Positions 23,748 through 36,840 of a stretch of 40,912 bases of DNA are shown in pieces. The position numbers were made by a program, and so were the translations under genes. Numbering within the stretch: position 1 is the first letter of the stretch; every line of letters starts with the position of its first letter. This stretch comes from Gemmatimonadota bacterium (lineage in GTDB: Bacteria; Gemmatimonadota; Gemmatimonadetes; Longimicrobiales; Gaopeijiaceae). Location of the stretch: NCBI GenBank assembly GCA_003562075.1, contig PWWP01000065.1, positions 1-40,912 of the forward strand. The letters are read 5' to 3'. The notes under the pieces were generated by a model. That model was not told where the DNA came from. It saw only the letters and a list, made by a program, of their open reading frames with translations, and did no database searches.

Positions 23748-24896
23748 ATGGCAGAACTGCAGGGATACAGGGTTGGGTCGGTGCGGTCGTGGCGGGGATC
23801 TGTCCTCATGGCCCTTCTGGCCATGGCCGCGGGTCTCCTGGCCGGGTGCAGCTCCGATGACGATGGACGAGCCCAGATGGCCCAGGCTGCCGACGGTCCG
23901 CCCAGGGGCGGGGGAGCCGAGCGGGCCATTCCCGTTTCGGCCCGCATCGCCGTCCAGGAAGAACTCCAGGTGACGCTGCGGGGATCCACCAACCTGAGGG
24001 CCCGTGAAACGGTGGATGTGATTCCCAAGGAGTCGGGAATCGTGGCCTCCATCCCTGTGGAGGAAGGGGACCGGGTTGCCGAGGGAGATGTTCTGGCTCA
24101 GCTGGATGACGAGGAGTGGCGTCTCCAGGCAACCCAGGCCCAGGCCCGGGCCCAGGCCACCAGCGATCAGGTCACCCGAGCCCGTGCCCTGGCTGACCTG
24201 GATCTCATCTCCGAACAGGAGGTGGGCAACCTGGTGTCCGACTCGGCAGTGGCGGCTTCGGACCTCGAGCTAGCCGAGCTCCGTGTGCGAAATGCCGCCA
24301 TCCGCACTCCCATCTCTGGAGTGGTCACCCATCGGTATATCGAGCGAGGGAGTCAGATCACAACCGCCAACCCTGCTTTCACCGTGGCCGATGTGGATCG
24401 CCTGGAGGCCCGAGTTGCCGTGCCGGAGCGCCAGGCATCGGCGATCCAGGTGGGGCAGGCCGCCAGACTCATGTTCCAGGAGGGGGCTGACCCCATTGCC
24501 ACCGGCACCGTCGAGAGGATTCGTCCGGTGGTGGATGCCGAGAGCGGAACCGTCCAGGTCACCATCACCGTGTCCGCTCGGGAGGACTCCCGTCTCCGGC
24601 CGGGACAGTTCGTGAATGTGGACATCGTGACCGAGACCCTGGCCGAACGGATCACCCTGCCCCGCACGGCCGTGTTGGTGGATGGTGCCGTTCCCCGAGT
24701 CTTTGTGATCCAGGATGGCCAGGCAGTGGAGCGGGAGGTCTCGTTGGGTTATGCCCGAGGGGATCGGGTGGAAGTTGCCACTGGGTTGGCGGCCGGCGAC
24801 ACCGTAGTCGTCATCGGTCAAGACAACCTCCGTCCCGGTGTCCCCGTCCGCCTCATGGAACTGGATGGCCAGCCGGTGGAGGGACAGGGCCAGTGA
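23748..24896 (+). CDS. RND efflux periplasmic adaptor lipoprotein
   Basis: A 382-residue membrane fusion protein. The ATG at 23748 is preceded by AACAGGAAAGATC and gives a lipoprotein signal with lipobox LLAGC (C34, followed by SSDDDG). The mature part has the lipoyl half-motif (IPVEEGDRVAEGDVLAQLDDEEWRLQ), a short alpha-hairpin (ATQAQARAQATSDQVTRARAL), the second half (AAIRTPISGVVTHRYIERGSQI), the beta-barrel (ARLMFQEGADPIATGTVERIRPVVD) and a membrane-proximal domain (PRTAVLVDGAVPRVFVI). The hairpin is short, as in AcrA-type adaptors. The stop overlaps the first RND pump start by 4 bp (GTGA), so the two are translationally coupled. Confidence 0.94.
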   Translation: MAELQGYRVGSVRSWRGSVLMALLAMAAGLLAGCSSDDDGRAQMAQAADGPPRGGGAERAIPVSARIAVQEELQVTLRGSTNLRARETVDVIPKESGIVASIPVEEGDRVAEGDVLAQLDDEEWRLQATQAQARAQATSDQVTRARALADLDLISEQEVGNLVSDSAVAASDLELAELRVRNAAIRTPISGVVTHRYIERGSQITTANPAFTVADVDRLEARVAVPERQASAIQVGQAARLMFQEGADPIATGTVERIRPVVDAESGTVQVTITVSAREDSRLRPGQFVNVDIVTETLAERITLPRTAVLVDGAVPRVFVIQDGQAVEREVSLGYARGDRVEVATGLAAGDTVVVIGQDNLRPGVPVRLMELDGQPVEGQGQ

Positions 24897-27800
24897 AGGT
24901 CGTAGATTTCTCCGTCGCCCGCCCGGTGGCGGTCTCCATGGCCTTCATTGCGGTCATGGTCTTCGGGATGGTGTCCTATACCCGGCTCCCGGTGGATCTG
25001 CTGCCGGACATCTCTTTCCCCACGGTCTCCATCGAGACCGAGTACCAGGGCGTGGGCCCCCGGGAGATCGAGAACCTCATCTCCCGTCCCATCGAGGAAG
25101 CCATCTCCGTGGTCCAGGGAGTGGATCAGGTCACCTCCCGGTCCCGGCCCGGTCGGTCCGAGATCACCATCCAGTTCGGGTGGGGGACGGACATGGACTT
25201 CGCCGCCATGGATCTCCGGGAGCGACTGGACCTCATCAATCTCCCCCCTGACGCCGGCCGGCCCACCATCGCCCGATACGATCCGGCATCGGAGCCGGTG
25301 GTTCGATTTGCCCTCATTTCGGACCGGGCGTTGGATCCCCGACTGGAGGAGGACCGGGAAGAGCTCATTGCTCTTCGCTGGCTGGCAGAGGAGCAGGTCC
25401 GCCGAGCCCTGGAGGGGATCGAAGGTGTGGCGGCCGTCCGGGTCACCGGGGGGCTGGAAGAGGAGATTCTCGTGGAGGTCAACGAGACTCGCCTGGCCCA
25501 GCTGGGGATCCCCTTCCAGCAGGTGGCACAGCGGCTGGCCGCAGAGAACATCAACCTGGCCGGCGGAATCCTGGAGGAGGGGGATGCCGAATACGTCGTC
25601 CGGACGGTGAATGAGTTCGTGGAAGTGGACGAGATGCTGGGTGTGGTGGTGGGACAGGCCGGAGGTCAACCCATCCTCCTCCGGGACGTGGCCGGCGTCC
25701 GGCGGGGAGCCTCGGAACGGGAGACCGTTTCTCTGGTGAATGGGAATGAGTCGGTGGAGGTGGCCGTACTGCGGGAATCCACTGCCAACATCGTAGGCCT
25801 CTCCCAGGTCGTCCGGGATCGCCTGGTGGAGCTGCAGGGGGATCTTCCGCCTGGCGTCACCACCAGCCTGGTCACCGACCAGGCCATCTTCATCGAGAGG
25901 GCTGTGGCCGACGTGCGTCTGGCAGGGATTCTGGGTGCCATCTTCGCCATGATCATCCTCCTCCTCTTCCTCCGACACCTCCCCACGACCCTCATCGTGG
26001 TGACGGCCATCCCCATCTCGGTCATCGCCACGTTCGTCCTCATGTTCTCCAGGGACATCTCCCTGAACATCATGTCGCTGGGTGGATTGGCCCTGGGCAT
26101 CGGGATGTTGGTGGACAGCGCCATCGTCGTGCTCGAGTCCATCGCCAGGGAACGGGAACAGGGGGCTTCAGTGGTGGAGGCGGCTCGGAAGGGGACGGAC
26201 CGGGTCGGGGGGGCCGTGGTCGCTGCCACCCTCACCACCGTGGCGGTTTTCATTCCCATCGTCTTCGTTCAGGGAGTGGCCGGCCAGCTTTTCGGCGATC
26301 AGGCCTGGACCGTGTCCTTCGCTCTCCTCTCAGCCCTGGTGGTCTCCCTCACGCTGATTCCCATGCTGGCCTCCCGCGGCCAGGGTGCGAAGGCCCGGAC
26401 CGGCGAGGTCGGAAAGACAGCTGAGCCCGGGAAGGTTGGTTCAGCCCTGGCCATGGGAACCGGAGGGATCTTGAAGGTCTTGCGGAAGGGGGGTGGCGGC
26501 TTCGGGCGTCTCCTGAACCCGGTGGCCGACGGATTCGACGGCCTGTACCGAAGCCTGGCTGACCGCTATCCAGGGATACTCCAGGGGGCCCTCAAGCGAC
26601 CGGTCCTGGTCCTCGGCGGCGCTGCAGTGGCCCTGGGCATCGGCCTGGCCATCATTCCCAGGGTCGGGGTCTCACTGGTGCCTGAGCTGGCCCAGGGTGA
26701 GCTGGTGGTGGAGTTGGAGGCAGCCCCGGGAACCAGTTTGCTCCGGATGGAGGCCCTGGCCCGACGAGCTGAGGGGATTGCCCTCCAGAGCGCCCAGGTC
26801 AGGGAGGTCTTCACCAATGTCGGGGTGCGAGGTGGAGCCGGCACCCTGGGTCGGACCGGAGAGCAGGAACGACACGCCGCCACCCTCCTGGTCCGCCTTT
26901 CCGAGGTCGGCACCGTGGAGGACAGGGTGGCCGCCGAACTCAGCGAGGGCCTGGCCAGCCTCCCGGGAGTTCAGGTCCGGGTGGACCGACCCCAGCTCTT
27001 CAGCACCAATGCTCCCCTGGAGGTTGAGGTCCGTGGCTTTGACCTTCGACTCCTGAACGAGACGGCCTCCGATGTCCGGCAACTCCTTCGGACCGTGCCG
27101 GGCATCACGGGGGTGGAGGAGGAGCGGAGGCAGGGAACCCCGGAGATCGCCATCCGATTCGACCGAGAGCGGCTAGCCCGGCAGGGGCTGACGGTGGGGG
27201 ATGCGGCAGAGGCGCTCCAGGCCAAGATCCGAGGGGCATCGGCAACCGAGTTCACGGAGCGGGACCGAGACCTGAACGTCCTGGTTCGAGCCCAGGAAGA
27301 GCAGCGGACCAGCCTGGAGGATCTGGAGAACCTGCGCCTGGAGATTCCAGGAGGCGGGAGTGTGGCGTTGGCTGCGGTTGCGGACCTGTATTTCGAGGAT
27401 GGTCCGGCAGAGATTGTCCGGCGAGGCGGATCCAGGGTGGCCCTGGTAGAGGCCCGACCGGTGGGCACCGACCTGGCTGGAGCCTTCACCAGAGTGGAGG
27501 AAGCCATCAGTGGAATCACCCCTCCCGCAGACATCTTCGTCACGGTGGCTGGCCAGTCCAGGGACCTCCAGCAATCGATCCGGTCCATGCAGCTGGCACT
27601 CCTTCTGGCCATCTTCCTGGTCTATCTGGTCATGGCCAGTCAATTCGAATCCTTCCGGCAGCCGGGGATCATCCTGGCCTCCATTCCCCTGGCCCTGCCT
27701 GGGGCCATTGCGGCTCTCTGGATCACCGGGAGTTCCCTTTCGGTGGTGGCCCTCATCGGGATGGTCATGCTGGTGGGAATCGTGGTGAACAACGCCATCG

Positions 27801-28189
27801 TCCTGGTGGACTACGTGAATCAGTTGCGCCGGGACGAAGGCTACCCTTTGGATGATGCGCTCGTGGAGGCGGGGCGTGTTCGCTTCCGACCCATCATGAT
27901 GTCCACCCTGACCACGGTCCTGGGGCTGGCTCCTCTGGCCCTGATCCCCGGTGAGGGGGCCGAACTCCGAGCCCCCCTGGCCATCCCCGTCATCGGGGGG
28001 CTCATCATCTCCACGGCTCTGACCCTGGTGGTGGTTCCGGTCCTCTACCGGATCTTCGAGATCCGTGGGGAACGACGCCGGCAGGCCGAGGCCCAGGTGC
28101 CCCCACCGGAAGGAGTTGAAGAGGTGGACGAGCCAGAGTCGACACCGGTGGGTGCCGGAGTCGGCGCCGCCCACCCTGAAATGGCATGA
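24893..28189 (+). CDS. RND efflux pump inner-membrane subunit 1
   Basis: A 1098-residue RND transporter driven by proton-motive force. It shows the usual 12-helix, two-lobe layout: helix 1 in ARPVAVSMAFIAVMVFGMVSY, the porter domain with LPDISFPTVSIETEYQGV, helix 4 with LALGIGMLVDSAIVVLES, a long cytoplasmic linker before helix 7 rich in Gly/Lys (about 500-550), a second porter domain, helix 10 with MVMLVGIVVNNAIVLVDYV and a charged C-terminal tail. Compared with AcrB D407/D408/K940 the relay residues read D/S/N, as in many HAE1-like pumps outside the AcrB clade. The GTG start overlaps the adaptor stop by 4 bp, and the second pump follows 29 bp after its stop, as in MdtABC-type operons. Confidence 0.94.
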   Translation: MKVVDFSVARPVAVSMAFIAVMVFGMVSYTRLPVDLLPDISFPTVSIETEYQGVGPREIENLISRPIEEAISVVQGVDQVTSRSRPGRSEITIQFGWGTDMDFAAMDLRERLDLINLPPDAGRPTIARYDPASEPVVRFALISDRALDPRLEEDREELIALRWLAEEQVRRALEGIEGVAAVRVTGGLEEEILVEVNETRLAQLGIPFQQVAQRLAAENINLAGGILEEGDAEYVVRTVNEFVEVDEMLGVVVGQAGGQPILLRDVAGVRRGASERETVSLVNGNESVEVAVLRESTANIVGLSQVVRDRLVELQGDLPPGVTTSLVTDQAIFIERAVADVRLAGILGAIFAMIILLLFLRHLPTTLIVVTAIPISVIATFVLMFSRDISLNIMSLGGLALGIGMLVDSAIVVLESIAREREQGASVVEAARKGTDRVGGAVVAATLTTVAVFIPIVFVQGVAGQLFGDQAWTVSFALLSALVVSLTLIPMLASRGQGAKARTGEVGKTAEPGKVGSALAMGTGGILKVLRKGGGGFGRLLNPVADGFDGLYRSLADRYPGILQGALKRPVLVLGGAAVALGIGLAIIPRVGVSLVPELAQGELVVELEAAPGTSLLRMEALARRAEGIALQSAQVREVFTNVGVRGGAGTLGRTGEQERHAATLLVRLSEVGTVEDRVAAELSEGLASLPGVQVRVDRPQLFSTNAPLEVEVRGFDLRLLNETASDVRQLLRTVPGITGVEEERRQGTPEIAIRFDRERLARQGLTVGDAAEALQAKIRGASATEFTERDRDLNVLVRAQEEQRTSLEDLENLRLEIPGGGSVALAAVADLYFEDGPAEIVRRGGSRVALVEARPVGTDLAGAFTRVEEAISGITPPADIFVTVAGQSRDLQQSIRSMQLALLLAIFLVYLVMASQFESFRQPGIILASIPLALPGAIAALWITGSSLSVVALIGMVMLVGIVVNNAIVLVDYVNQLRRDEGYPLDDALVEAGRVRFRPIMMSTLTTVLGLAPLALIPGEGAELRAPLAIPVIGGLIISTALTLVVVPVLYRIFEIRGERRRQAEAQVPPPEGVEEVDEPESTPVGAGVGAAHPEMA

Positions 28190-28218
28190 CTGAGATCCAC
28201 TCGAAGGAAGACTGACCC

Positions 28219-31200
28219 ATGTCGCTACCCAGATTTGCAGTCCGGAAGCCGGTGACCACCGGGATGATGGTGGTGACGGTCATCGTACTCGGGTTGATCT
28301 CCACCTCGCTCATCCCGCTGGACATGTTCCCCAGCTTCGAGCGTCCAGTTCTTCAGGTCACCGTTCCCTATCCCAATGCTTCGCCCAGCGAGGTGGAGCG
28401 GCGGATCGTGCGCCCCCTGGAAGAGGAGCTGGGCACGGTCCGGGCGCTGGAGTCCATCCGGGCCACGGCCTCCCAGGATCGGGGGCGGGTGGAGCTGGAG
28501 TTCAAGCCAGGCACGGACATGGACATGGCGGCTCTGGAGGTCCGGGAGCGGGTGGAACTCGTTCGGGGACAACTCCCCTCCGATGTTCAGCGGATCAACC
28601 TGAGGCGATTCTCCTCCGATGAGCAGCCCGTCCTCCGAGCAGCCATTGCCTGGGATGGAGATCCCGCTCTCCTGACTGAACTAGTGGAGCGACAGATCGA
28701 ACCGGCCCTCCTACAGGTTCACGGGGTGGCCCAGGTGGAGTTCTCCGGGTTGGAGGCCAGGGAGGTCTCCATTGAGCTGGACCAGGATCGAATGCGGTCC
28801 CAGGGCATTACCATCGCCATGATCAGTACGGCGCTGAACCGGGGGAACGAGGACTATTCGGCAGGTGAACTGGAGCTGGAGGGAACCCGTTTCGACATCC
28901 GGGCCGAGGGCCAACTCCGCTCGGTGGAGGAGATCGAGAATCTTCCGCTGAACGCTGTCGGGGTGCGCCTCTCGGATGTGGCCGAAGTCACCTACGACTT
29001 TCCGGAGCGGGATTTCTTCTTCCGGATGAATGGGCAGAATGCTCGGCAGGCCGAGGTGTACAAGGAGTCGGAAGCCAACATCGTGGAGGTGGCTCGAGCC
29101 GTCCGGGTGGCGCTCGAGGAGGTGACGGAACGTCCCGGGTTGGAAGGGCTTTCCTTCCGCATCTGGCAGGATCAATCGGAGGGGATCATCGAGGTACTCT
29201 GGCTCCTGGCCGGAGCCGGAGCGTTGGGAGGTGGGCTGGCTGTAGTGGTTCTCTTTGCGTTTCTCCGGAGGCTTACGCCTACCCTCATCGTGGCTGCGGC
29301 CATCCCCGTGTCGCTGATCTTCACGGTGGTGATCCTCTACCTCTTCGGCGACTCGCTGAACATCATCACCCTTTCGGGTCTGATGCTGGCAGTGGGAATG
29401 CTCATCGACAACGCCGTGGTCGTAGTAGAGAACATCTTTCGACATCGGGAGATGGGATCTGATCCTGAGGAGGCGGCTGTGGATGGAGCCAATGAGGTTG
29501 GGCTGGCCATCCTGTCGGGAACGGTGACCACGGTCATTGTCTTCACCCCCCTCTTCTTCCTCCCCCCCACCCAGATGGGGACCCAGTTCCGGGCCTTCGG
29601 AACCAGCATCTCTTCCACCATGCTGGCCTCCCTGGGGGTGGCTTTCACCCTCATTCCCCTCCTGGCTCTGTGGCTCCTGAAGGGGAAGATGCCCAGGCCC
29701 GGTCGGGTCATGAGCTGGATGAACAACACATACCAGCGAGCTCTGGACCGGATCCTGAACTACCGGTACGTCACAGCCGGAGTCGCCGCCCTCGTCTTCA
29801 CGGCCGGGATCAGCCTTCTCATGGGTCTTCCCCGGGAGCTCATGCCCGAAGAGGACAACCGCTTCATCCGGATGAGCGTCTCCACCCCCCGGGGCATCTC
29901 GGTGGAGGAACGGAGCCAGATCTTCGCCGAGGCCGAGCAGACGATCCTGGACCACGCCGAGGGGCTGGAGATCACCAATGTGAACTCCTTCTCCCGGGGG
30001 ACCTTCTCCAGCATCTTCATGACGCTCAAACCCTTCTCCGAGGGGGGAGAGAAGTCCACGGCCCAGATCACGGAGGAGATCCAGGATCTCCTTCCGGTGA
30101 TCCCCGGGGTGGAGTGGCGGCAGCGGAGGGGCTTCGGTCGGATGTCGGGTGTCCAGGTGCGACTGGTGGGAGAGAGCACGAGCGAGCTGGCGCGCCTGGC
30201 CGAGGCTGTTGAGCTGCACTTGAGTCAGTCGGTGGACGGGATCAACGAGATCGACAACTCCCTGGAATCAGGGAACGAGGAGGTCCGGGTTCGAGTGGAT
30301 CGCCGTGCAGCCGAACGAGCTGGCCTGACCTCCCAGGATGTGGCCCAGGCCGTCTCGGGAGCGCTGCGAGGATCGGTAGCCACTCGGTTCCGCTCCGGGG
30401 AGCGGGAGGTGGATGTCCTCCTCCAGCTGCGGGAGGAAGACCGGGTCTCCATTGCCCAGCTCAGCAACATGGCCGTGGGAACGGCCGACGGGACCAACGT
30501 GCCCCTGGGAACGGTGGCTGACATCCAGGTGGTGGGCGGCCCTACCGACATCCAGCGGGAGAATCGCCAGACGGCGGTGACGGTCTCGGCAGAAGTCTCC
30601 ACGGGCTACAATCGGGAGGATGTGATCCAGGACGTCCAGACTGCCATGGCCGGGTTCGAGCTTCCGGTGGGCTACAGCTGGGACCTGGGCCGGGGTTGGG
30701 CGGAGGAACAGGAGCAGTTCGGAGATATGATGATTGCCGCCATCCTGGCGCTGATCCTCATCTACCTGGTCTTGGCCGCGCTCTTCGAGTCCATGGTCCT
30801 CCCTCTCATCATCTACTTCTCCATCTTCTTCGCCGTGCCGGGGTTGGGGCTCATCTTTCTCATCACCGGTTCCAGTTTCTCCATCCTCTCCTTCCTGGGG
30901 ATCTTGATCACCGTTGGGATCGTGGTGAACAATTCGATTGTGATGATCGACCTGGTGAACCAGTTGCGAGATCGAGGAATGGACCGAAGACAGGCCCTCT
31001 TGAGTGGATGCACGGCTCGACTTCGGCCGATCCTCATGACGAGTCTCACCACCGTCATGGGCCTGATCCCCATGGCCTTCTGGGCAACGGAGGGGATGGG
31101 TGTCATGTTCGCCCCCATCGGGCAGGCGGTCATCGGAGGCCTGACCACCTCTACGATCCTGACTCTCCTCCTCACACCCACGCTCTACGCCTGGTTTGAT

Positions 31201-31326
31201 GACATGGGGCTCTGGCTCACCGCCGTCCGGCGTCAGGCTCTGGCCATGGCCGGCTTCGGCTCGGTGGGCGGAGAGACGGGGACGCCGGAAGCGGCTGTGG
31301 CTCGAGGGTCCACCTCCACCGGGTGA
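28219..31326 (+). CDS. RND efflux pump inner-membrane subunit 2
   Basis: A 1035-residue RND transporter, clearly different in sequence from the preceding one. Helix 1 lies in RKPVTTGMMVVTVIVLGLIS, the porter domain has LDMFPSFERPVLQVTVPYP, helix 4 reads LMLAVGMLIDNAVVVVENIF, helix 10 reads LGILITVGIVVNNSIVMIDLV. The relay positions are D/N/N relative to AcrB D407/D408/K940. No insertion like that of pump 1 is seen between helices 6 and 7. The ATG is preceded by GAAGGAAGACTGACCC, a reasonable ribosome binding site. As the last gene of the operon it is followed by a strong terminator. Together with pump 1 it could make a heterotrimer, as MdtB2C does in E. coli, or the two may work as separate homotrimers sharing adaptor and channel. 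Confidence 0.94.
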   Translation: MSLPRFAVRKPVTTGMMVVTVIVLGLISTSLIPLDMFPSFERPVLQVTVPYPNASPSEVERRIVRPLEEELGTVRALESIRATASQDRGRVELEFKPGTDMDMAALEVRERVELVRGQLPSDVQRINLRRFSSDEQPVLRAAIAWDGDPALLTELVERQIEPALLQVHGVAQVEFSGLEAREVSIELDQDRMRSQGITIAMISTALNRGNEDYSAGELELEGTRFDIRAEGQLRSVEEIENLPLNAVGVRLSDVAEVTYDFPERDFFFRMNGQNARQAEVYKESEANIVEVARAVRVALEEVTERPGLEGLSFRIWQDQSEGIIEVLWLLAGAGALGGGLAVVVLFAFLRRLTPTLIVAAAIPVSLIFTVVILYLFGDSLNIITLSGLMLAVGMLIDNAVVVVENIFRHREMGSDPEEAAVDGANEVGLAILSGTVTTVIVFTPLFFLPPTQMGTQFRAFGTSISSTMLASLGVAFTLIPLLALWLLKGKMPRPGRVMSWMNNTYQRALDRILNYRYVTAGVAALVFTAGISLLMGLPRELMPEEDNRFIRMSVSTPRGISVEERSQIFAEAEQTILDHAEGLEITNVNSFSRGTFSSIFMTLKPFSEGGEKSTAQITEEIQDLLPVIPGVEWRQRRGFGRMSGVQVRLVGESTSELARLAEAVELHLSQSVDGINEIDNSLESGNEEVRVRVDRRAAERAGLTSQDVAQAVSGALRGSVATRFRSGEREVDVLLQLREEDRVSIAQLSNMAVGTADGTNVPLGTVADIQVVGGPTDIQRENRQTAVTVSAEVSTGYNREDVIQDVQTAMAGFELPVGYSWDLGRGWAEEQEQFGDMMIAAILALILIYLVLAALFESMVLPLIIYFSIFFAVPGLGLIFLITGSSFSILSFLGILITVGIVVNNSIVMIDLVNQLRDRGMDRRQALLSGCTARLRPILMTSLTTVMGLIPMAFWATEGMGVMFAPIGQAVIGGLTTSTILTLLLTPTLYAWFDDMGLWLTAVRRQALAMAGFGSVGGETGTPEAAVARGSTSTG

Positions 31327-31395: not shown

Positions 31396-31577
31396 CTGGT
31401 GGAGGACTGACAGATGCCACGGCACCAGGCGGGGGCGGGTGAAACGGCACTGAATGGACGGGTGCCGAGGGGAGTCCCATTCCCCTATCCCGGTGCTCCG
31501 AGGAACCCCCGAAATTGAAGGCCATCCGCCAGGGATCTTCCGGGTGCGGATCCATTCCTTCGGCCTCAGGAGGGGCT

Positions 31578-33116
31578 TTGCTGGCTCGAGTCCATTCCAG
31601 CACGCTGGTGGGAATCCAGCCGGTTCCGGTTCAGGTCCAGGTGCATCTGACCCCCGGCCTGCCCTCCATCTCGGTGGTGGGGCTTCCCCAGAGCGCTGTC
31701 CGGGAAGGGAAAGATCGGGTCCGTGCCGCATTGCAGCAGACTGGGATCGCCCTGCCGGCCCAGCGGGTTACCGTCAACCTGGCGCCAGCGGACGTGCGAA
31801 AGGAGGGGAGTGGCTTCGATCTCCCCGTGGCCGTGGGTCTGGCCATCTGCTCTCTGGGGCTTCCGCCTGAATGCCTGGAGGCCACGGCGTTCCTTGGCGA
31901 ACTGGGACTGGACGGGGAACTGCGCCCCGTCCGGGGAGCCCTGGCCGTGGCTCGGGGGTGCCGGGAGGTTGGAATGCAGACGCTCATCGTCCCTGAGGGA
32001 AACGGTCGAGAGGCCGCAGCGGCAGATCCCACGCTCCAGGTCCTGACGGCTGGGTCCCTTCGCCAGGTGGTCCAGCACCTTCAGGGTCGGGCACGCCTGA
32101 CCCGGGCGGCGCCTCCGGATCGGGATGCCGGCGCTTCCGCCCTCCTGGGGGCCGGCTGCTTCTCAGAGGTGCGGGGGCAGGAAGGAGCCAAGCGAGCGCT
32201 GGAGGTGGCGGCAGCCGGAGGCCACAATCTGGCTCTCATCGGCCCTCCAGGGACGGGAAAGACCATGCTGGCTCGGCGCTTCCCGGCCATTCTGCCGCCT
32301 CTGGATCAAGAGGAGGCCCTGGAGGTCACGACAATCCACTCGGTCACCGGGCTCCTCCCGGATGATGCAGGGGTAGTCCGGGCCCGTCCCTTCCGAGCAC
32401 CACACCACACCACCTCTCGGGCCGGCATGGTGGGCGGAGGGACACCTGTCCGACCTGGAGAGATCAGTCTGGCCCACCGGGGCGTTCTCTTCCTGGACGA
32501 GCTCCCCGAATTTCGGAGAGGGGTCCTGGAGACCCTCCGCCAGCCTCTGGAAGCCGGGTGGGTATCGGTGGTCCGGGCCCGGGAACGTTATCGCTTTCCC
32601 AGTCGGTTCACGCTCATGACGGCCATGAATCCCTGTCCCTGCGGTCATCTGGGCGATGAGAACCAGGCCTGCACCTGTGACCCGGGGCAGGTGGCCCGCT
32701 ACAGAAACCGTGTGTCCGGTCCTCTGTGGGACCGGGTCGACCTTCACGTGGAGGTTTGCTCACCCTCGGTGGAGGTTCTCCGAGGTACTGGGACAGGGGA
32801 GGCGTCGGGCGCCATTCGCCAGCGGGTCATGGAGGCCCGGGAACGGCAGTCGAATCGCCTGGGTCCAGGGCGAGTGAATGGGGAAATGGCTCCCGGTGAG
32901 GTGGATGCTTCGGTGCCTCTGGGCCAGGCAGGCGAAGCCCTCCTCCGACGCTCAGCGGTGAGCCTGGGCCTCTCAGCTCGGGCCATCCATCGGGTGTTGA
33001 AGGTTGCCCGGACCATTGCCGACCTGGAGGGGGCGGGATCGGTCCGCCGGGACCATCTGGCCGAGGCCATCCAGTACAGGGTCCTGGATCGGAGCGTCGG
33101 GAAAGGGGCCGCTTGA
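31578..33116 (+). CDS. comM: ComM/YifB-family Mg-chelatase-like AAA+ ATPase
   Basis: Members act in natural transformation as a ComM-type branch-migration helicase, but are also widespread in bacteria of unknown competence. The protein has 512 residues from the TTG at 31578. That start is chosen because AGGAGGGG lies just upstream and because the family N-terminus is LARVHSSTLVGI-like; a further 21 codons are open upstream to 31515. Order of domains: N-terminal S5-like ChlI domain (GLPSISVVGLPQSAVREGKDRVRAA), AAA+ domain with Walker A GPPGTGKT near residue 222, Walker B VLFLDELPEF, the PCPCGHLGD segment, and the C-terminal Mg_chelatase_C domain (RAIHRVLKVARTIADLEG). It lies alone between the RND terminator and the B12 riboswitch. 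Confidence 0.93.
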   Translation: MLARVHSSTLVGIQPVPVQVQVHLTPGLPSISVVGLPQSAVREGKDRVRAALQQTGIALPAQRVTVNLAPADVRKEGSGFDLPVAVGLAICSLGLPPECLEATAFLGELGLDGELRPVRGALAVARGCREVGMQTLIVPEGNGREAAAADPTLQVLTAGSLRQVVQHLQGRARLTRAAPPDRDAGASALLGAGCFSEVRGQEGAKRALEVAAAGGHNLALIGPPGTGKTMLARRFPAILPPLDQEEALEVTTIHSVTGLLPDDAGVVRARPFRAPHHTTSRAGMVGGGTPVRPGEISLAHRGVLFLDELPEFRRGVLETLRQPLEAGWVSVVRARERYRFPSRFTLMTAMNPCPCGHLGDENQACTCDPGQVARYRNRVSGPLWDRVDLHVEVCSPSVEVLRGTGTGEASGAIRQRVMEARERQSNRLGPGRVNGEMAPGEVDASVPLGQAGEALLRRSAVSLGLSARAIHRVLKVARTIADLEGAGSVRRDHLAEAIQYRVLDRSVGKGAA

Positions 33117-33161: not shown

Positions 33162-33329
33162 GCGGGCGAGCATTCCGGAAGCCGGTGTGAATCCGGCACG
33201 GCCCCGCCACTGTGAGAGGCCCCCACCCGAATGGGAGGGGAGCCGGCCCTCCTCGAATGACCACTGGGACCCTGGGTCCCGGGAAGGTGAGGAGCGGCCC
33301 GCCTCGAGTCAGGAGACCTGCTCGCCTGC
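33162..33329 (+). promoter_or_regulatory. Cobalamin riboswitch aptamer
   Basis: The leader of the TonB-dependent receptor contains the conserved cobalamin aptamer core: GCCGGTGTGAATCCGGC (33181-33197), CCCGCCACTGTGA (33203-33215) and the B12 box GAGTCAGGAGACCTGC (33306-33321). The closing stem P1 pairs GCGGGCGAGCA (33162-33172) with TGCTCGCCTGC (33319-33329), with only one G-U wobble. A peripheral hairpin GGGACC-ctg-GGTCCC is also present. A copy of the P1 left-arm block GGCGAG recurs at 33355-33360, next to the GTG start, and could compete for CTCGCC (33321-33326). The element indicates control of the downstream B12-uptake genes by adenosyl- or other cobalamins. Confidence 0.93.
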
Positions 33330-33362
33330 GACCTGCTTCCATGCACTCTTCGAGGGCGAGAG

Positions 33363-35579
33363 GTGCTGGCTTCTTCGTATCTGAGAACCGGGCGGAGCCC
33401 CTTGGGCTTCCTGACCCTTCTGATCCTGCCGATCCTCCTGGTGCCAGGAGTCTTCCTGGTGACGCCAGGAAATCTTCCGGCCCAGCACCCTCCTGAGCTC
33501 CAGGGCCGGGTGTTGGACAGCGCCACGGGCCAGGGACTCGCTGGGGTCCAGGCAACGGTCGTCGGAACAGGGTCAGGCGCCGTCTCCGATGGGGATGGCC
33601 GAGTCCGGATCCGCTCACTTTCCCAGGGGCCGGTCGTCCTTCGGCTGGAGCGGATGGGCTATGCCACCGTCCAGCTGGCGCTACTCCTCCGGAATGGCCA
33701 GGTGACCCGGTTCCGCCAGGAGTTGGAGCCTGCCCCAGTCCATCATCCCGGGATCCAGGTGACGGCGCCTCGGGAAGCATGGACGGCTGGGGCCTCCTTC
33801 GTTCTTGAGCGGCCAGGCATCGAGGCCTCGGGCGCCAGGACCCTGGGAGAGATCTTGGAAGGACGGCCTGGGCTCATGGTGGTCCAGCGGGGTCCTGGCG
33901 GAGCTCAGGAGCTCCAGATGCGGGGAGGGGTGTCGGACCAGATCCTGGTTCTCCTGGACGGGGTTCCCCTCAACGATCCCCTCTCCGGAACGGCCGATCT
34001 CTCCCGTGTGGCAGCGGGTGAGATCGAGCGGGTTCAAGTCCTTCCGGGAGCGCGAAGCGCCCACTACGGCCCTGGCGCGTTGGCTGGGGTCGTCCTCGTG
34101 GAGACCCGGCCGGCCCAGTCGACTGCCGAGTTGACGGCTCAGGCCGGGTCTCTGGGAGAAAAGGGTGGAGAAGCCCGCCTCGTCCGGACCCACAGCTCCG
34201 GGTGGAGTGTGGGCGCAATGGGAGGCATCCGGGAGATGGAGGGGCGCTTCCCCTTTGCCCAGGATCCGTCGCTCGGTGGCGGACGGGAATTACGACGGAA
34301 TGCCGACCTGCGTCACCGTCACCTCCACCTTCTGAGTCGAGGCCCTCTAGGCGAGGGCGAGTGGACTGTCCGCCTTCGCGGGGAGTTGCAGGAGAGGGGG
34401 ATCCCGGGCAAGAGCTTCGCCCCCTCCGACTCGGCACGACAGAGCCAGGGATCGCTCACCGCCACCACTCGGTGGACCCGGTCGAGCCCGGATGATGGAC
34501 GGAGGCTGGACCTCCGCGCTCAACATGTGGAAACCCGCCTCCATCTGGCTGATCCTGCACCGCCGGCAGGCCCCCCCTTCGATGACCGGACCCATTACCG
34601 AGAAACGGGAGCGGCCTTCCGCCTGGACGAGGACACCTTCCTGGGCACCGGGGTGGAGGTGGCCGCGGACCTGGAGCTGACCCGAAGGGAGATCTTCGGC
34701 GATGGCCTCCGGGAGGAGGGAGTGCCTACCGCCATGGATGGTGGGATCGGACTCCGAGCCGGCCGTACCCTCTCCGACGTTCCTTTGCACCCTCGTCTCA
34801 CGGGAGCTCTGCGCCTCCACCGGGATGATCTACAGGATCAGTGGTTCCCGGCCCACGACCTGACCCTCCAGTTGGGCGGGAGGGTGATGAACGGTCACCT
34901 GACCCATCGAACGTCCTTCTCCCCTCCCTCCGTCTCCGACCTCTTCTTCCGTGAAGGAGTGGGGATCGAACCCAATCCCTTTCTTCGAGCCGAACGAGTG
35001 CCCAGCGAGTGGGAGGTTGGGCTGTCGGGAGAGTTCTCCCTGGGCGGCGCTGAACTCCTGCTTTCTGGTCAATACTTCCAGGGAGACATGGAAGACATGA
35101 TTCTCTGGGCTCCCGATTTTCGATTCGTCTGGAGCCCACGGAACACGGATGTGGAGCGGGACGGCATCGAGCTTCAAGGGGAGCTGGACCTTGCGTCCAA
35201 GGGGCTGGTCCTGTCGGGCCACATCAGTTCGGTCCGGGCCACTTACGGACAGGGGGCCGGCGAACCGGGAACCCAGGTCATCTATCGGCCCCGGCGTTCG
35301 GGTGGGCTTTCAGTCAACTGGCGTCGGGGAGGGTGGCAGGTGGGGTTGAACGGCCAGTACATGGGCCATCGCTATCCCGTGCCGGCCGCCGCCAACGCCC
35401 TGGAGGGGTTCTGGACCGTGGATCTCACTGTGGGCGGGCCCATGGCGCTGGGGGACTGGGTGGCTGAACCCCGGCTGCGGGTCCATCGCCTCAATGGTGA
35501 GACCGCCCCCTTCATCCACGCCGTGCCCGAACCCGGCCGAACCGTCTCATTCCAACTGACCCTGAGACACGGGGGCTGA
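33363..35579 (+). CDS. btuB: BtuB-like TonB-dependent outer-membrane receptor
   Basis: A 738-residue TonB-dependent receptor under a cobalamin riboswitch, so vitamin B12 or a cobinamide is the likely ligand. Signal peptide about 1-40 (LGFLTLLILPILLVPGVFLV, cleavage after NLPAQ). A carboxypeptidase-regulatory-like domain (about 45-115, LQGRVLDSATGQGLAGVQATVVG) precedes the plug (about 135-250; GARTLGEILEGRPGLMV, ILVLLDGVPLNDP, IERVQVLPGARSAHYGPGALAGVV). The rest is beta-barrel ending in an aromatic/hydrophobic strand (VSFQLTLRHG). The regulatory-like extension is more typical of Bacteroidota/Gemmatimonadota receptors than of E. coli BtuB. I do not see an obvious TonB box. The GTG start is close behind GAGGGCGAGAG. 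A beta-propeller lipoprotein gene follows after 78 bp. ABC components BtuCDF are not in the window. Confidence 0.9.
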   Translation: MLASSYLRTGRSPLGFLTLLILPILLVPGVFLVTPGNLPAQHPPELQGRVLDSATGQGLAGVQATVVGTGSGAVSDGDGRVRIRSLSQGPVVLRLERMGYATVQLALLLRNGQVTRFRQELEPAPVHHPGIQVTAPREAWTAGASFVLERPGIEASGARTLGEILEGRPGLMVVQRGPGGAQELQMRGGVSDQILVLLDGVPLNDPLSGTADLSRVAAGEIERVQVLPGARSAHYGPGALAGVVLVETRPAQSTAELTAQAGSLGEKGGEARLVRTHSSGWSVGAMGGIREMEGRFPFAQDPSLGGGRELRRNADLRHRHLHLLSRGPLGEGEWTVRLRGELQERGIPGKSFAPSDSARQSQGSLTATTRWTRSSPDDGRRLDLRAQHVETRLHLADPAPPAGPPFDDRTHYRETGAAFRLDEDTFLGTGVEVAADLELTRREIFGDGLREEGVPTAMDGGIGLRAGRTLSDVPLHPRLTGALRLHRDDLQDQWFPAHDLTLQLGGRVMNGHLTHRTSFSPPSVSDLFFREGVGIEPNPFLRAERVPSEWEVGLSGEFSLGGAELLLSGQYFQGDMEDMILWAPDFRFVWSPRNTDVERDGIELQGELDLASKGLVLSGHISSVRATYGQGAGEPGTQVIYRPRRSGGLSVNWRRGGWQVGLNGQYMGHRYPVPAAANALEGFWTVDLTVGGPMALGDWVAEPRLRVHRLNGETAPFIHAVPEPGRTVSFQLTLRHGG

Positions 35580-35657
35580 GGGCGGGGTCCGATTGTGGAG
35601 GCTCAGTCCCATGTCCCTGCTGGATTTCCTATGAAAAACCCGAACCAGGAGTACTTC

Positions 35658-36773
35658 GTGCCATCAAATACTTTGTATTCAAGCTGCCTTTTCCGGAGTC
35701 ACCGGAGCTCCGGCGCCGGGGTCACCGTTGGCCTCCTTCTCCTGGCTGTCCTCTCGCTCCTCCTTTCCGGGTGTGACGGAGATGGGGGAACGACGACCCC
35801 TGAGCCCACACCGGATCTGGGGGAAGTGGGGGTGGTGGTGAACAGCGTGGAGCAGACGGTGACCCTCTTCCGTGTCGATGATCCTGACGAGTCCCCCCGG
35901 ACGGTGGACCTGCAGACCGGGGGCGATGCCACCCCGGTGGGCGCCGCTGTTCGAGGAGACCGGGCCTTGATCCCCCTGGGCCTCTACCCAGCCGCCGTCC
36001 TGGTGGATCTGAAGGCGGGTCAGGTCATCCGGACCATCGGGCTCCCCCAGGGCTCGGGAGCCACGGGCGCCATCTTCCTCACCGACTCCACGGCCCTGGT
36101 GGCCAACCCCGATCGCAACTCGGTGAGTCACCTGGACCTGGAGGCGGGAAGTGCCGGAATGGAGATCGAGGTGGGCCGATACCCCCAGGGTTTCGTGGAG
36201 ACGGACGCGGGGATCGTGGTGATCAATGCTGAATTGGAGAACTTCCAGCCTGCAGGGCCCGGAACGCTTACCGTACTGGATCCCGAGGCCATGGCTGTCA
36301 CCGGTGAGGTCACCCTCACGGGCCAGAACTCCAATTCAGGGGTCGTCACATCAGATGGCCGCCTCTTCATCCTCCACGGTGGGAGCTGGGGGGCCGACGA
36401 TGGCTCCCTCTCGGAGGTGGACATCTCTCTTTCTCAGGAGGTGGCTCACCATGAGGGATTCGGAGATCTTCCGTCCGGTCTCACCTATCTGGACGGGTCC
36501 CTCTGGGCATCCTCCTGGAGCTTTGGAATCATCCAGTGGGATACGGAATCGGAAACCTTTGTCCGGGGTCCCGACGATCCCATCCATCCGGCGGGGATTC
36601 CCTCCAGTGCCGGGCTGGGTGTGGACGAAGAGGGTCGCCTGTATGCCTTGACCCCCGAATGTCAGGCTCCAGGACGGGTTCTGCGTCTTGGAGGGGATCT
36701 GTCCGTCCGGGCCGAGGTGAATGTGGGGATCTGCCCGGCATGGGTGGGATTCGGCTGGGTGGACATCGAGTAG
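35658..36773 (+). CDS. Surface-type beta-propeller lipoprotein, BtuG/YncE-like
   Basis: A 371-residue lipoprotein. The GTG at 35658 is chosen because AGGAG lies 6 nt upstream (CCAGGAGTACTTC); the frame is open to 35595, and an ATG at 35631 lacks such a site. The signal has a long basic leader, a hydrophobic core and lipobox LLLSGC with C39, then an acidic DGDGG spacer. The mature part is a repetitive beta-propeller: recurring units such as QTVTLFRVDDPD, YPAAVLVDLKAGQVIRTI, NRNSVSHLDLEAG and GTLTVLDPEAMAVTGEV, with about six or seven blades. This matches YncE/DUF5074-type propellers, including Bacteroides BtuG, which caps BtuB and binds B12 at the surface. Location right after a riboswitch-controlled BtuB-like gene supports that reading. 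Specificity is inferred, not seen. Confidence 0.8.
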   Translation: MPSNTLYSSCLFRSHRSSGAGVTVGLLLLAVLSLLLSGCDGDGGTTTPEPTPDLGEVGVVVNSVEQTVTLFRVDDPDESPRTVDLQTGGDATPVGAAVRGDRALIPLGLYPAAVLVDLKAGQVIRTIGLPQGSGATGAIFLTDSTALVANPDRNSVSHLDLEAGSAGMEIEVGRYPQGFVETDAGIVVINAELENFQPAGPGTLTVLDPEAMAVTGEVTLTGQNSNSGVVTSDGRLFILHGGSWGADDGSLSEVDISLSQEVAHHEGFGDLPSGLTYLDGSLWASSWSFGIIQWDTESETFVRGPDDPIHPAGIPSSAGLGVDEEGRLYALTPECQAPGRVLRLGGDLSVRAEVNVGICPAWVGFGWVDIE

Positions 36774-36777
36774 AAAA

Positions 36778-36840
36778 GCCCGTTGAGGAAGTACAGGGAC
36801 CACCACCCCGGTCGGTGGTGCCTGTACTCCCTCGACGGGC
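36778..36840. repeat. Compact hairpin member of the palindromic repeat family
   Basis: Starting 4 bp after the stop of the lipoprotein gene, arms at 36778-36804 and 36814-36840 are complementary over 24 of 27 positions, with a 9-nt loop. The left arm (GCCCGTTGAGGAAGTACAGG, then GACCACC) matches the terminus of the copy near 6967-6986 when reversed (GTTGAACAAATACAGGGACC). So this looks like two termini of the family placed back to back with the core deleted. It may also act as the transcript end of the B12 module. The remaining gap 36841-37069 shows no gene; about 230 bp may hold the promoter for the next operon. Confidence 0.65.

Follow-up and report, generated by a model that had tools for sequence, protein, structure and literature searches.

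Several outer-membrane systems have been described in which a TonB-dependent receptor is capped by, or encoded beside, a lipoprotein that captures its ligand. The closest of these to the locus considered here is BtuB-BtuG of Bacteroides thetaiotaomicron, in which a cobalamin riboswitch accompanies a receptor of the BtuB fold and an adjacent acidic seven-bladed propeller lipoprotein (structures 8BLW, 8BMX, 8P97 and 8P98; PMC10404256; PMC6143338). BtuG2 carries a net charge of -18 and attracts vitamin B12 electrostatically, and extracellular loop 8 of Bacteroides BtuB acts as a hinge that dislodges B12 from the lid (PMC10404256). The tip of this loop occupies the pocket of BtuG in B. thetaiotaomicron, and growth on B12 is lost when it is replaced (PMC10404256). 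Prior work limited BtuG to Bacteroidetes (PMC6143338) and called lipoprotein-capped transporters exclusive to Bacteroidota (PMC10404256). This analysis concerns a window of 40,912 nucleotides from a Gemmatimonadota bacterium (GenBank assembly GCA_003562075.1, contig PWWP01000065.1, positions 1 to 40,912), in which a cobalamin riboswitch, a BtuB-like receptor gene and a propeller lipoprotein gene follow one another on the forward strand. These genes probably encode a lidded B12 importer that would work like BtuB-BtuG, outside Bacteroidota.

The two systems also share the nearest folds of both proteins and a conserved aromatic receptor loop 8. They differ in phylum, and the Gemmatimonadota propeller lies outside the DUF5074 profile, is about 15% identical to BtuG in structural alignment and has two conserved cysteines, while its receptor has an N-terminal carboxypeptidase-regulatory-like domain. 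The Gemmatimonadota pair is known from sequence and models, and its complex and ligand binding are predictions. XusA-XusB of Bacteroides likewise places a TonB-dependent receptor under a seven-bladed propeller lipoprotein but differs in ligand, regulation and propeller family (DUF4374) (PMC13142918). The DUF4465 lipoproteins, BtuJ and its relatives, belong to a different protein family and also scavenge B12; a 2026 paper, whose main text does not name Gemmatimonadota, found that B12-binding DUF4465 proteins span eight clades and often lie near TonB receptors and PF16819 propellers, so that B12 scavengers are already known from outside Bacteroidota (PMC13398666). The receptor fold is further shared with E. 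coli BtuB, which has no lid, and with lidless BtuB of Gemmatimonadota; the latter also stand behind cobalamin riboswitches but form a separate clade with no adjoining propeller gene. A literature search that covered few subscription journals returned no paper treating BtuG and Gemmatimonadota together.

The riboswitch aptamer (33177-33317, forward strand) scores 61.3 bits against RF00174, with a gathering score of 31.5 and an E-value of 6e-13 in the window, and is the sole match to this family in the 3.59 Mb draft genome. It is followed by the receptor gene (33363-35579, forward strand; GTG start at 33363, TGA stop at 35579), which encodes 738 amino acids. Pfam finds both a plug (PF07715, 7e-21) and a barrel (PF00593, 5e-17), as expected of a BtuB, and residues 46-124 (33498-33734, forward strand) form the N-terminal carboxypeptidase-regulatory-like domain (PF13620, 2.7e-10; PF13715, 3e-10). 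Syntenic relatives of the receptor are 51% identical. In a Foldseek search of the PDB with a fused model of receptor and propeller, ranks 1 to 13 are all BtuB; B. thetaiotaomicron BtuB3 and BtuB1, both of which bear lids, come nearest, followed by E. coli BtuB. A riboswitch ahead of a BtuB-like receptor, as proposed by a sequence-only reading of this DNA, is thus borne out by the aptamer, the domains and the nearest folds. The best NCBIfam match of the receptor is TIGR01779, the B12 receptor family (E 5e-27), and its 94.7 bits fall below the equivalog cut-off of 599.7.

This shortfall is one of two points that favour import of a compound other than a corrinoid, for example a siderophore; the other is that seven-bladed propeller lids are known on siderophore receptors (XusB; PMC13142918). 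Such a ligand is nevertheless very improbable, as the pair stands behind a cobalamin riboswitch, XusA first appears at rank 20 in the PDB search, below all BtuB chains, and btuF-, btuC- and btuD-like genes lie in the operons of relatives. In those relatives the genes occupy the gap between riboswitch and receptor, fully or nearly in two loci (L054 and L060) and as single genes in two others (L058 and L048), which makes a corrinoid the likely ligand. From the riboswitch and this synteny, the receptor probably transports corrinoids. The operon of L054 runs riboswitch-btuF-btuC-btuD-receptor-propeller, and its propeller gene ends inside a second TonB-receptor-like gene (L054:5077-7209, reverse strand); Pfam finds only a plug in the product of this second gene, which matches BtuB profiles weakly.

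The propeller lipoprotein gene, the candidate lid, occupies 35658-36773 on the forward strand and was identified by its AlphaFold2 model, Foldseek matches and syntenic relatives. The longest open reading frame begins at 35595, and the GTG at 35658, behind an AGGAG ribosome-binding site (35647-35651, forward strand), leaves a gap of 78 bp after the receptor, in agreement with the sequence-only reading. The product has a lipoprotein signal peptide, as BtuG does, with an LSGC lipobox (35763-35774, forward strand) and a lipidation cysteine (codon 35772-35774) that is nearly invariant in relatives. The residues after this cysteine are DGDGGTTTPEPTPD; a lipobox is found in all propellers of relatives whose start is present, and the post-cysteine residues are mostly acidic. 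AlphaFold2, with 30 relatives aligned, predicts a beta-propeller (predicted local distance difference test score 94.9, predicted template modelling score 0.91). BtuG chains make up 16 of its 18 top propeller matches in the PDB (E 5e-16 to 3e-12); the remaining two places go to 1l0q, a surface-layer propeller from an archaeon, and to the beta subunit of hydrazine synthase. The propeller family profile matches BtuG1 chains at 3e-18, 1l0q at 1e-20 and E. coli YncE at 0.018, and hhalign aligns the family to BtuG1 with P 6e-7. Among the BtuG entries in the PDB, 8ptf, titled BtuG2, is identical over the 277 residues compared to 8ptd, titled BtuG1, and shows one mismatch to chain B of 8blw (BtuG1).

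The propeller family is more conserved in the loops of one face than elsewhere (mean 0.70 versus 0.55; 0 of 20000 permutations; p 0.0002 at loop level). A mapping of single B12-contact residues from BtuG2 was dropped in favour of this loop face, because pairs of propellers aligned locally by sequence are shifted by one blade. The two conserved cysteines (mature residues 297 and 321; 36660-36734, forward strand) lie on the same loop face and may form a disulphide near the ligand face. The mature propeller of the window has a net charge of -35, and each of the 28 proteins measured carries a negative charge. The conserved face and this charge are indirect signs that the propeller may bind corrinoids, as BtuG does with very high affinity.

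The arrangement recurs in Gemmatimonadota. All 31 named loci of the propeller family in a public genome set belong to this phylum, which supports a Gemmatimonadota host, as the sequence-only reading had supposed, and the propeller profile matches roughly one in four of the Gemmatimonadota genomes sampled (106 of 395). Synteny was compared in 97 closer relatives, the genome of the window included, where 39 propeller matches were set against receptor and riboswitch matches. Receptor and propeller share a contig in 35 of the 39; they are adjacent and on the same strand in all 35, within 400 nt in 32, and this adjacency spans several families of the phylum. Of the four other propellers, three begin near a contig edge, one of these (G014) behind the tail of a receptor, and the fourth is that of G040, described below. 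Of the 35 pairs, 29 have a same-strand riboswitch upstream, within 500 nt of the receptor in 17 and about 2.4-3.4 kb away in 12. The triplet, whose absence in relatives the sequence-only reading had taken as telling against it, therefore recurs across the phylum. That the propeller is an unrelated lipoprotein and a chance neighbour of a BtuB gene is scarcely credible in view of this adjacency, even though no curated family in Pfam or NCBIfam names the propeller. In three genomes (G087, G072 and G070; loci L062, L063 and L065) two tandem propeller genes follow the receptor, the lid apparently having been duplicated and diverged, and in three others (G090, G093 and G096; loci L066, L067 and L068) a long N-terminal extension with Ig- or PKD-like repeats precedes the propeller, recalling the extra domain of B. 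thetaiotaomicron BtuG1.

The host is apparently a B12 user that lacks corrinoid synthesis and must import. Its genome encodes five B12-binding domains, and btuF-, btuC- and btuD-like genes are found on another contig. Profiles for CbiL and CbiC, which matched control genomes, found nothing in this genome; because the assembly is 95% complete, this absence is not proof.

The lidded receptors also differ from their lidless counterparts within the phylum. In propeller-free relatives, 18 of the 20 riboswitch regions sampled contain another BtuB-like receptor, and none of the 20 contains a propeller. Lidded and lidless receptors fall into two clades across one branch (support 100/100). Plug and most other loops are similarly conserved in both sets, and the site of greatest difference is a loop at mature residues 544-550, which strand counting assigns to extracellular loop 8 in a model with 22 strands; the signature of this loop in the window, WAPDFRFVWSPRN, is encoded at 35106-35144 on the forward strand. 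Conservation at this loop is 0.92 in lidded and 0.67 in lidless receptors. Nearly all of the 20 lidded receptors read W.PDFRF.WSPRN there, and the region contains the 12 consecutive residues with the highest conservation in a scan of plug and barrel; the corresponding site in lidless receptors is QYTFSPP-PNYFN-like, without the PDFRF signature. Extracellular loop 7 (SPPSVSDLFFREGVGIEPNP; 34920-34979, forward strand) is also conserved in the lidded clade. The parallel between loop 8 of the lidded Gemmatimonadota receptors and that of B. thetaiotaomicron BtuB is strong, and loop 8 is a candidate hinge for release of B12 from the lid.

Several results weigh against a lid that works as BtuG does. 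In structural alignment with VIA-align the propeller reaches Z of about 30-33 with BtuG, 35.5 with 1l0q and 30-32 with several unrelated propellers; similarity among seven-bladed folds is broad, and the modelled fold alone is not diagnostic of BtuG. The DUF5074 profile (PF16819) gives no match to the propeller of the window and nothing over its cut-off in the genome, and only six of 30 relatives match it weakly (best 0.0027); as a control, the BtuG1 segment reaches 50.6 bits against a cut-off of 27.2. The proposal of a BtuG-like propeller therefore stands for the closest folds but not for the family profile, and profile comparison places the protein as a remote relative of BtuG outside the curated DUF5074 profile. 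The difference in loop 8 comes from a single evolutionary split, across which other features of the clades, such as the N-terminal domain of the receptor, also differ and are confounded with it.

Two further results concern how the propeller meets its receptor. The TGA stop of the receptor is in frame with the propeller, so that reading TGA as tryptophan gives one chain of 1096 residues, which was modelled with an alignment of five in-frame relatives and unpaired rows. Both parts of the fused model fold well, but the predicted template modelling score is 0.57 and the docking is not confident; the alignment was shallow, with five paired rows, and the two proteins were joined through the signal peptide. 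In one genome (G040, locus L040) the propeller stands directly behind its own cobalamin riboswitch, and the receptor match is on another contig. These results would suit a propeller that binds corrinoids as an outer-membrane lipoprotein next to the receptor, in the manner of BtuH in Bacteroides, and is no hinged lid on it. Such an arrangement is unlikely, since adjacency is nearly fixed and involves one receptor clade only, and the loop 8 signature is restricted to receptors paired with a propeller.

The last of the opposing results concerns export to the cell surface. The acidic spacer after the lipidation cysteine, described by the sequence-only reading as a possible export signal, is present, but 12 other Gemmatimonadota lipoproteins from the same DNA, a small control set, are about equally acidic, and the spacer was dropped as evidence for surface export after this comparison. 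A propeller that faces the periplasm from the outer membrane and relays B12 from the receptor to BtuF would agree with the failure to demonstrate a surface-export signal and with the extra periplasmic N-terminal domain of lidded receptors. This is a decidedly improbable arrangement, as the receptor feature that differs most in conservation between the clades is an extracellular loop, and the solved relatives with such an arrangement are all surface lids (PMC10404256).

The recurrence of the pair, the BtuB- and BtuG-like folds, the riboswitch and a loop 8 signature that only the lidded clade has make a lidded B12 importer the most likely interpretation. The operon would then be a gene pair under riboswitch control that takes vitamin B12 and related corrinoids up across the outer membrane. 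At low cobalamin, the riboswitch would permit production of receptor and propeller. The strongly acidic seven-bladed propeller, anchored by its lipid on the cell surface, would sit over the receptor barrel and catch B12 on the conserved loop face. The receptor may then push loop 8 (WAPDFRFVWSPRN) into the propeller site and hand B12 down in a lid-and-hinge action, after which TonB would power its transit of the barrel, and BtuF, BtuC and BtuD, encoded elsewhere in the genome, would take it into the cytoplasm. It is also reasonably likely, if held a little less firmly, that this is a pedal-bin receptor-propeller pair, widespread in Gemmatimonadota and with its own loop 8 signature, and that lidded import predates the split of the phyla, was transferred or arose twice from the same fold.

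The surroundings of the pair in the window can be described briefly. A strong hairpin lies directly 3' of the lipoprotein gene (36778-36840, forward strand; -50.6 kcal/mol, z -7.0); it is terminator-like and lacks a T run. Immediately 5' of the riboswitch stands a gene for a Mg_chelatase-domain ATPase of the YifB/ComM type (31515-33116, forward strand). Assignment of this gene as a cobalt chelatase was dropped, as it combines the domains PF13541, PF01078 and PF13335, which we take to mark the YifB/ComM kind. Two neighbouring large genes (24893-31326, forward strand) resemble RND-type efflux permeases by eye.

If Gemmatimonadota do import B12 through a lidded receptor, lidded capture would not be an adaptation to the gut, as most of what is known of this phylum comes from soil, sediment and water. 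It would also prompt one to ask how lipoproteins reach the cell surface in Gemmatimonadota. Lidded and lidless B12 receptors could then be compared inside one phylum, with the residues of loop 8 as the obvious focus.

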